Below, one piece after another: positions 55,915 through 63,198 of a stretch of DNA of 64,000 nt. Each line of letters begins with the position of its first letter. Position 1 is the first letter of the stretch. A program made the position numbers and the translations under genes. This DNA is from Priestia megaterium (GTDB lineage Bacteria; Bacillota; Bacilli; Bacillales; Bacillaceae_H), in the NCBI RefSeq assembly GCF_009497655.1, contig NZ_CP023317.1, positions 1,021,501 through 1,085,500 of the forward strand, given 5' to 3'. Below the pieces are notes generated by a model that saw only the letters and a list, made by a program, of their open reading frames with translations, did no database searches and was not told the DNA's origin.

Positions 55915-56012
55915 CCTGATATATCAGGAAACCCAGCTATCCTAGTCCTAAAGACCTTAGACCTGAGGTTTTGCGTCCCAGCCTTTCGACTGGTTTGCCT
56001 TTAACTGAACAA
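55915..56012 (-). promoter_or_regulatory. Cyclic di-GMP-I (GEMM) riboswitch
   Basis: Read on the minus strand: AAAGGCAAACC, a CCAGTC-GAAA-GGCTGG hairpin with GNRA-type tetraloop, GGGACGCAAAACCTC, AGGTCTAAGG, then TAGGATAGCTGGGTTTCC. These are the conserved blocks of the GEMM-I aptamer in order. After it, CCTGATATATCAGG (55915-55928) can form its own hairpin that competes with the P1 arm TCAG / CTGA and lies beside GGGGGTAAAGG, the ribosome-binding region. No T-run terminator follows, which favours translational control. Confidence 0.93.
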
Positions 56013-61036: not shown

Positions 61037-63188
61037 ATGAGAATTAATCACAATATTGCAGCGTTGAACACGTATCGTCAGTTTAACAATGCAAACAATG
61101 CACAAAGTAAATCAATGGAGAAGTTGTCTTCGGGGCTGCGTATTAATAGTGCCGCTGATGATGCTGCAGGGCTTGCTATATCCGAAAAAATGCGTGGGCA
61201 AATTCGTGGATTAGACCAAGCTGGACAGAATGCTCAAGATGGTATCTCACTAATTCAAACTGCTGAGGGTGCTCTAAACGAAACGCACGATATTTTACAG
61301 CGTATGCGTGAACTATCAGTTCAATCTTCAAATGACACTGCTACTGACTCTGATCGTAAAGAGATTCAGAAAGAAGTTTCTCAGCTTAAAGATGAAGTTG
61401 ACCGTATTTCTAATACAACTGAGTTCAATCAAAAGAAATTATTAAATGGTAGTGTTGGTAACAACGCAGTTATATCTGATGATAACTTAAGCCTTGGGGG
61501 AGCTAAAGTCGTTGATGGAAATCTTAAAGCTGATACGTACACAGCAACAGCAACAAATGCAGCTACTGTAGGTGCTGATGTAAAAACAAACACAACTGGC
61601 TTAGATGCATCGTCTGATTTCACATTAACTTCTACTAATGTAGTAGGTTTAGAACTTGGAGACTATACATTAGAGTTGAAATCTACAGGCGTAGCAGATA
61701 CGTTCGATGTCTCATTAAAGAATAGCGATGGGGTAGAAGTAGCTAGTGCAGCGGGATTTGATACAACAGCGGGTGGCTCATTAACAGGTACAACTCCTGA
61801 TGGAACAGCTACTAAGTTCACAATTGGGGGGGTAGCAACAGGTGTAGCTAAAGAAGGTTCTATGGACTTCAATTTAAACGCAACGTATGCGAGCGCTGGT
61901 GACCTTGCTATCGAAGGAACTTCAGGTAACACTGAATTCAGTAGTGGTGCGGGCTTAAAAATCACTGATAATGAGTTTAAGGCAGGTAGCTTTGAACTAA
62001 ACATGACTGTTGATTCAGCATTAATTGGGGGTGGTGAAACTTCAACTATTACAACTACTAACAACGCTTTAACAATGCACATTGGTGCTAATGCAAACCA
62101 AACCATGAAAGTCGATATCAACAAAATAGACACTAATAGTTTAAGTCTTAATAATATCGATTTGACAACACAAAAAGGTGCGGAAGCAGCGATCACTAAG
62201 ATAAGTAAAGCAATTGAAAATGTATCAGGTGAGCGTTCTAAACTTGGGGCATATCAAAATCGTCTAGATCACACAATTAACAATTTAAACACATCTTCTG
62301 AAAACATCACTGCTGCGGAATCTCGTATCCGTGACGTAGATTATGCTTTAGCTGCATAAGCAGTTACAAGCACAGTCGTCCTAGCTGGTAACGGCTAGTG
62401 ATTATTATTGGGTGAATTGCTGGAAACCCCTTAGACCTTTTCTTGCCACAACGTAGTTAGAAATGACAAGCGTGATGGCGCGAAAAAAGAAAAGATTGGG
62501 CAATCAGCAGCCAAGCTCCTGTCTTGAAAAAGTGGAGAAGGTTCAACGACTAGGATAGACCATCTAAGGCAAATGCTATGATGATGAAATCCATAGGTGA
62601 AACAATAACCATCAGTATTGTGAATCCGAAGTGCCCGGCCCCTACTGATATAAGAGGGTGAAGATATAGTCTAGTCATTTATGAAAATAAATGTTCGCAC
62701 GATGGCGAAAGAAATGATGGAACAAACAAAGAATTCAATTCTTTCTCAAGCATCACAAGCAATGTTGGCTCAATCTAACCAGATGCCTCAAGGAGTTCTA
62801 CAACTCTTGAGGTAATTGATTAAAGGGCGTCTAGCTTGGTAACGAGCTAGAGTATAACTGGGTGAATTGCTGGGACTTCCTAAAGTTTTATCAACCACAA
62901 CGTAACTGCAAACGGTAAGCGTAACGGTTTGAAAATGATGAAGATAACATAATGGATAATCAGCAGCCAAGCTCCTGTGAGGAAACTCTGGAGAAGGTTC
63001 AACGACTAGAGAATACGGTCTAAGGTGAAAACTATGATTATGAATCTCGTAGGGCAGTGAAAACTGTTCGAAGTGCCCAGCTCCATGAAAAAACATGGAT
63101 GAAGATATAGTCTATTCTGTAACTGAAAGGTACAGTCGCAAAGCAAGCGAATCAACAACCACAAGGAGTGTTACAACTTCTTCGTTAA
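61037..63188 (+). CDS. hag: Flagellin (Hag), interrupted by two group I introns
   Basis: The coding sequence is join(61037-62341, 62702-62770, 63144-63188), giving 472 residues. Exon 1 (435 codons) holds the conserved N-terminus [16 protein letters not shown].., a variable surface domain (about 140-375), and the start of the C-terminal helix up to ESRIRDVD. Exon 2 (23 codons) supplies [20 protein letters not shown].., exon 3 (14 codons plus stop) [14 protein letters not shown]. The joined sequence restores the universally conserved RDVD-MAKEMM and MLA-QANQQ junctions. Both splice sites follow the group I rule (U before, G at the intron end). Without splicing, exon 1 runs on to YALAA* at 62359. 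Regulated by SigD and probably CsrA. Flagellin introns are known in thermophilic Bacillaceae. Confidence 0.9.
62342..62701 (+). ncRNA. Group I intron 1 in hag (360 nt, no ORF for an endonuclease)
   Basis: Core elements in order: P (AATTGCTGGAAA, 62415), Q (AATCAGCAGCCAAG, 62502), R (GTTCAACGACTAG, 62541) and S (AAGATATAGTC, 62661). P1 pairs exon GAU with guide GUC (62375-62377), with U62341 on G62375, extended by TATGCTT / AAGCACA and a CTGC-ATAA-GCAG hairpin. It ends in G62701. The guanosine-dependent ribozyme appears complete; sequence style is IA2-like as in Gram-positive phages. Confidence 0.92.
62771..63143 (+). ncRNA. Group I intron 2 in hag (373 nt, no endonuclease ORF)
   Basis: Core elements: P (AATTGCTGGGAC, 62865), Q (AATCAGCAGCCAAG, 62958), R (GTTCAACGACTAG, 62997) and S (AAGATATAGTC, 63102). 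Guide GGC (in GGGCGTC, about 62825-62828) pairs exon GCU with U62770 on G. The P1 extension is a hairpin CCTCAA(G)GAGTT-CTAC-AACTCTTGAGG (62786-62812). Its first 45 bases are also an in-frame flagellin C-terminus with a stop. Strongly similar to intron 1 throughout the core, so the two are related copies. Confidence 0.9.
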
Positions 63189-63198
63189 TTTTAAATAT

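Follow-up and report, generated by a model that had tools for sequence, protein, structure and literature searches.

A flagellin gene with two group I introns

The window, that is the whole 64-kb stretch of DNA that was analysed, holds one flagellin gene, which is interrupted by two group I introns (Table 1), both scoring above the 50-bit gathering cut-off of the Rfam model RF00028. Intronless relatives read RDVDMAKEMM at the join of exons 1 and 2 and continue from MAKEMM through the C-terminal sequence uninterrupted, so that the 5′ splice site of intron 2 is placed after GCT and its 3′ splice site before CAAGCG; of the 106 rows compared, 105 have GCT at this 5′ splice site and one has TCT. 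Intron 1, located 37 codons ahead of the gene end, is present in 51 of the 106 rows, while the full intron pair occurs in 4 of 10 genomes of the genus. A search of the genome with the Flagellin_C model recovered the window gene, split into two pieces, together with a single weaker match, a 305-residue frame elsewhere, presumably a hook-associated protein. By this search the genome has one typical flagellin gene, so that truncation of flagellin would matter. The second Flagellin_C piece extends from exon 2 into the beginning of intron 2, up to the last position of the model (Pfam).

Table 1. Features of the flagellin gene and its introns (positions within the window)
Feature	Position	Strand	Evidence or remark
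Exon 1 of flagellin	61037..62341	+	435 codons, ends ...AESRIRDVD; ORF list and translation
Intron 1, group I, 360 nt	62342..62701	+	Rfam RF00028, 87.9 bits; boundaries by comparison with intronless genes
Retained frame of intron 1, ending YALAA and stop	62342-62359	+	Survey of tails
Exon 2 of flagellin	62702..62770	+	23 codons, the last being GCT
Intron 2, group I, 373 nt	62771..63143	+	Rfam RF00028, 76.4 bits; P9.0 adjoining final G 63143
Surrogate flagellin C-terminus, 14 codons and TAA	62771..62815	+	In frame with exon 2; intact in 138/141 homologous introns
Exon 3 of flagellin, 14 codons and TAA	63144..63188	+	Sequence
Hairpin of the surrogate codons (CCTCAA...TTGAGG with GAGTT...AACTC), putative P1 extension	62786..62812	+	Sequence, synonymous-codon shuffles
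Guide GGGC, presumed partner of the 5′ splice site GCU-C (dash, splice site; U.G at the splice site)	62825..62828	+	
P2 stem with GUAA tetraloop	62831..62850	+	Sequence; stem covariation between homologues by eye
P9.0 5′ strand (UU), partner AA 63141-63142 beside terminal G 63143	63115..63116	+	

The first-pass annotation had claimed that intron 2 begins with a complete surrogate of the flagellin C-terminus, and the coordinates which it gave for this surrogate, like the peptides for surrogate and exon 3, are exact. Each comprises 14 residues and a stop, 12 of the 14 residues are identical, 9 of the 15 base differences fall, by reading, at third codon positions, and both the retained and the spliced form give a full-length flagellin of 472 aa.

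The 3′ splice site of intron 2 is backed by P9.0, formed between the dinucleotide that follows P7 and the one that precedes the terminal G, a residue imposed by the search pattern in pattern-found homologues. The pairing, UU/AA in the window, takes the form UU/AA, CA/UG, AC/GU and others among the homologues, and of 141 introns 123 can form both pairs, 15 one pair and 3 none. At the other end, the guide GGGC just 5′ of P2 is able to pair with GCU-C across the splice site, by few pairs and as judged by eye; intron 1, again compared by eye, carries GUC facing GAU at the position that corresponds with respect to P2. Of the 141 homologous introns, 129 contain GGGCG, and the motif is missing in 12 rows of the first sample, 11 of them clostridial by the class assigned from record names. 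A 5′ splice site within the surrogate, with AUGCCU, splice site at its end, opposite GGGCGU in a six-pair P1, was considered and rejected, since the two copies of one genome (G010) have CUGCCG and CUUCCA at this place and intronless genes read GCTCAAGC without a break.

Inverted repeats, found by eye, lie across both 3′ splice sites, at 62694-62709 (UUCGC..GCGAA) and at 63136-63150 (UCGC..GCGA), and could form a small hairpin linking the end of the intron to the start of the following exon. No homing endonuclease was found in intron 2: on the plus strand, 62771-63143 contains no ORF that reaches 60 aa, and a 102-aa minus-strand ORF at 62788-63096 is without a Pfam match (E up to 1). A plasmid search in near mode with 62342-63190 gave no match. 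A phage search with intron 2 matched 136 records, and none of the 20 of these that were listed reaches the surrogate, all starting at base 82 or later. Elsewhere in the window, a c-di-GMP-I riboswitch is found at 55924-56009 on the minus strand (83.8 bits).

Distribution of the spare tail

Homologous introns were collected from public genomes by the 3′ junction of intron 2, with a pattern lying in P7 and exon 3 only and hence without the surrogate, which imposed the start of exon 3 and the preceding G; the finder of exon 2 accepted a candidate only if Q or a stop came directly after it, so that the invariance of surrogate residue 1 is partly by construction. This first scan gave at least 119 matches in at least 117 loci, and among the 119 matches listed a group I signature is present in 114 and a candidate for exon 2 in 101; 98 were kept. 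Excluded were three chance-like (L072, L135, L144) and two degenerate-looking matches (L147, L163) for want of a group I signature, 13 matches without exon 2, of which 11 had at most 353 bases of upstream DNA available, with L085 and L098 lacking exon 2 in spite of long upstream DNA, and L057, L162 and the second copy of L076, in which a native gene end stands apart from intron and exon 3. Of 8 copies found in the family to which the window belongs, 2 are identical to scan matches, and the other six brought this sample to 104 introns, the surrogate being intact in 102 of these listed matches and family copies. In a second sample, of 397 genomes of the order, the junction was found in 68 genomes at 80 places, of which 78 were read and the remaining two (G009, G010) were already in the first sample; after exclusion of 37 duplicates and of L211, L212 and L243, which lack exon 2, 38 introns were non-identical to earlier ones, and exclusion of one, L189 (native end and remnant), left 37, with an intact surrogate in 36, exact duplicates removed.

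In both samples together, the 14-codon in-frame tail with its stop is far beyond chance, as 138 of 141 introns at this flagellin site, from Bacilli and Clostridia, with exon 2 joined, carry it intact (matches listed, exact duplicates removed). An RF00028 match was found in 6 of 7 relatives' loci scanned, the seventh (L075), with the tail present, being without a match above the cut-off. In the family of genome G134, which appears to include Anoxybacillus- and Geobacillus-like genomes and whose genes partly overlap the 141 introns, a partial set of loci has an intron at site 2 in 22 rows (about 19 genes), with the surrogate in all of them, and 7 rows with an intron at site 1 only end natively; Geobacillus-like genomes have introns at site 1, at site 2 or at both. 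A tree of 103 ribozyme cores, one of the 104 rows being omitted for length, splits 13 clostridial from 90 bacillar rows, with classes assigned from record names, by one branch with a support of 100/100, and as the spare tail is present on both sides of this branch, it is either ancient or has two or more separate origins.

Five introns of the family reside outside flagellin, in a gene which we take to be nrdE (L011/L030, L015/L037, L020/L039, L021/L031, L046), and are without a spare tail: the retained frame meets an immediate stop after the exon in four (GGSRR, stop) and continues into a short unrelated extension in one. Introns or remnants followed by exon 3, apart from a joined flagellin exon 2, are seen in L057, L162, the second copy of L076, L189 and L211; three of them still score as group I introns (L057 80.0, L211 73.3 and L162 65.7 bits), without the spare tail. 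These detached introns might be remains of flagellin genes once arranged in tandem, or stages in the gain or loss of an intron.

Homologues with a broken surrogate and an intact intron, which the first-pass annotation had named as the case against its reading, do exist in L074 and L232, and they limit the rule without overturning it (3 of 141). L074 (Oceanobacillus luteolus) has QFEQIAA and a stop in place of the tail in an intron about 20 bases shorter there, with a distance of 70 nt from the 5′ splice site to J3/4, as against 89-99 nt in 103 of 104 rows, while L232 has 23 unrelated residues instead; exons 2 and 3 are readable in both. The third, L068 (O. arenosus), is a broken gene: its surrogate is interrupted by two stops, and no exon 1 can be read ahead of exon 2. 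All three introns score above the Rfam cut-off (L074 67.5, L232 73.7, L068 70.7 bits), and exon 3 ends in QLLQ in all three genes. As L074 and L232 look otherwise intact, the tail can be dispensed with; the three cases document loss of the tail and not an absence of selection on it.

Selection on the spare tail

The first-pass view that the protein sequence of the surrogate had been kept is borne out across two bacterial classes, with a pN/pS (mean pairwise, 102 rows) of 0.232 over its 14 codons in frame as against 0.861 and 3.82 in the other frames, and of 0.097 over codons 9-14. For comparison, exon 2 gives 0.235 (101 rows) and exon 3 0.134 (102 rows), the latter lowered by residues fixed through the search pattern. 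The pN/pS and shuffle tests ignore kinship, which inflates the test of matching to the own exon 3, and the 106-row and 102-row pN/pS, codon and matching figures include two rows with a native end (L057, L162). At the DNA level, 130 distinct surrogate sequences encode 54 peptides; residues 10-13 are LQLL in 138 of 138 introns and residue 9 is V in 137, with leucine spelled by all six codons. The sequence findings and the evidence of selection on the peptide are firm, and use of the retained form can be strongly inferred: purifying selection on the peptide implies that the unspliced mRNA would be translated and that its product would matter. As exon 3 is the more constrained (0.134 versus 0.232), the spliced form probably predominates and splicing is unlikely to be fully neutral.

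The tails differ at residues 2-6, so that the retained and the spliced product may not be equal. This difference is consistent, as positions 2-4 of exon 3 are A, N and Q in all 102 rows (imposed for pattern-found rows) and the surrogate has S at position 2, which the pattern does not impose, in 96 of 138 introns, where exon 3 has A. Group I introns have been described in flagellin genes of thermophilic Bacillus and Geobacillus (Hayakawa and Ishizuka, 2009, 2012, as cited in PMC3984707 and PMC4853749), whose ribozyme activity is, according to the accessible part of PMC4853749 (citing Hayakawa and Ishizuka, 2012), temperature-dependent, splicing promoting motility at high temperature. Both observations would suit a regulated gene of two isoforms, in which the splicing ratio responds to growth conditions, for instance temperature, and filaments of the QSNQ.. 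and QANQ.. type are usefully different. Surrogate residues 2-6 vary widely, however, as reflected in the 54 peptides, which looks more like tolerance than like a second function, and no Rfam regulatory element was found in intron 2, so that we regard such regulation as rather unlikely. The temperature effect on motility described in that accessible part, if exerted at site 2, would argue against a fully working retained form. Equally doubtful, in our estimate from sequence, is the proposal that the ribozyme acts as a C-terminal isoform switch, the unspliced message being a major source of flagellin in many Bacillota and splicing setting the ratio.

Surrogate residues mostly track the gene's own exon 3: the two share residue 14 in 98 of 102 rows, with a maximum of 88 among 10,000 shuffles, and residue 8 in 94 of 102 (maximum 85), and a Q or G ending in exon 3 accompanies Q or G in the surrogate. 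Together with the 12 of 14 residues common to the two in the window, this might recall a duplication, produced as a by-product of intron insertion and kept similar through gene conversion with exon 3. Third positions are, however, no closer to the own exon 3 (identity 0.484) than to others' exon 3 (0.477), so that recent copying does not explain the match, and most synonymous sites distinguish the surrogate from the exon 3 of its gene (pS 0.781); such an origin of the likeness is therefore very improbable.

We give hardly any credence to a surrogate that is the real gene end, with intron and exon 3 as a decaying leftover. The surrogate alone does complete the flagellin ORF where intron 1 is absent, and an intact gene end with a separate downstream intron and exon 3 is what L057, L162, the second copy of L076 and L189 possess, but the constraint on exon 3, partly pattern-fixed as it is, exceeds that on the surrogate, the guide sequence, P9.0 and the Rfam score are all kept, and 51 of 106 rows also contain intron 1, whose splicing flagellin requires.

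The claim that the surrogate codons form the P1 hairpin stands in part: the codons do fold, but not into the exon-guide helix P1, the presumed guide being located downstream of them. Shuffling of synonymous codons weakens the local fold of the surrogate (mean z -1.61, 96% below 0, n=134), which fits an extension of P1 selected along with the peptide; exon 3 gives a mean z of -0.80 and exon 2 of 0.11 in the same test, and the excess is modest, as half of the effect recurs in exon 3. That RNA structure alone conserves the stretch, the peptide being a by-product of the hairpin, is scarcely credible although synonymous choices favour the fold, as exon 3 with nearly the same peptide also has a negative z, the CTCAA..TTGAG hairpin is present in 35 of 102 intact homologues, both G010 copies keep the peptide without it, and a frame-specific pN/pS is unexpected from pairing.

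Two introns, two proposed solutions

Group I introns in bacterial protein genes are thought to be limited by the coupling of transcription and translation, in which ribosomes precede folding, and bacterial ribosomes can arrive at a junction before the intron has been made. On the balance of the sequence evidence, we consider it likely that intron 2 insulates the only flagellin gene against delay or failure of the intron's own splicing. A ribosome arriving at the junction ahead of splicing, or where none takes place, would translate 14 further codons and then stop, yielding a full-length flagellin, and after removal of intron 2 the normal tail would be provided by exon 3. A bare stop at the junction would leave a flagellin lacking its last 14 residues; a subunit without the end of the C-terminal region should be defective or poisonous, an outcome which the spare tail would prevent. 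The early stop within intron 2 would keep the ribozyme core free of ribosomes and thereby allow folding, and the surrogate codons might have a second job in folding as the extension of P1. We infer that the intron splices, that ribosomes translate the unspliced message into a product which assembles, and that this confers an advantage; the spare tail need not be a regulated switch. The known view of an intronic stop, which stalls ribosomes so that the intron folds, is shared by this insulation, with the distinction that the stop comes here after 14 codons that rebuild the host protein.

The first-pass contrast with a degron-like tail of intron 1 holds, 43 of the 46 located intron-1 tails ending in Ala-Ala and 28 of the 46 in YALAA and a stop. 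Tags of tmRNA end in Ala-Ala in 17 of the 17 genomes with a tag read by ARAGORN, among 24 author-chosen genomes scanned, the tag of the window's own genome being GKSNNNFALAA. In Anoxybacillus vitaminiphilus the tag GKENYALAA accompanies the intron-1 tail YALAA and stop; three Planococcus-type genomes have a tag ending in LAFAA and an intron-1 tail YAEAA, and as these differ, the match of tag and tail covers the last two residues and is not exact. By analogy, the intron-1 tail may be a working degron that marks the product for ClpXP. The replacement QFEQIAA in L074 also ends in Ala-Ala, like the intron-1 tails, and this gene has possibly swapped a spare-part for a destruction-tag solution.

No recognisable report of a spare C-terminal tail was found in the literature searched, whose coverage mostly leaves out subscription papers, and the accessible parts of PMC8987985 and PMC12007492 hold nothing on it. 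The flagellin introns of thermophiles are like those of the window in host gene, group I type and order, and genomes of this thermophilic Bacillus and Geobacillus sort have surrogate tails at site 2 in the present sample; as far as the accessible parts of PMC3984707 and PMC4853749 extend, splicing and its temperature dependence are described and a spare C-terminus is not mentioned. The surface-layer gene of Clostridium tetani harbours, according to the portion available of PMC3919590, a likewise self-splicing intron whose unspliced transcript encodes an isoform; that intron is of group II, with four alternative splicing reactions and distinct isoforms, whereas here one group I intron in many species encodes a near-copy of the same tail. 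Mobile ORFs of fungal mitochondria likewise bring a new 3′ end to their host genes (atp6, atp9, cox2, nad3) with the native end downstream, the element being an endonuclease ORF and the native end of atp6 and cox2 being absent from the mRNA (accessible part of PMC3630166), whereas in flagellin a ribozyme would be able to bring back the native end, and this end is under the stronger constraint. That exon 3 is the more constrained copy argues against a displacement of the native end of the fungal type.

In the likely case of insulation, an intron that brings its own working end of the host protein would be a simple remedy kept by selection, and introns 1 and 2 would be two solutions to one problem, a destruction tag and a spare part. 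If true, this would show how a highly expressed gene can retain introns, the flagellin C-termini annotated in such genomes could be those of the intron, and the role of unspliced bacterial messages would become directly testable by peptide mass spectrometry.
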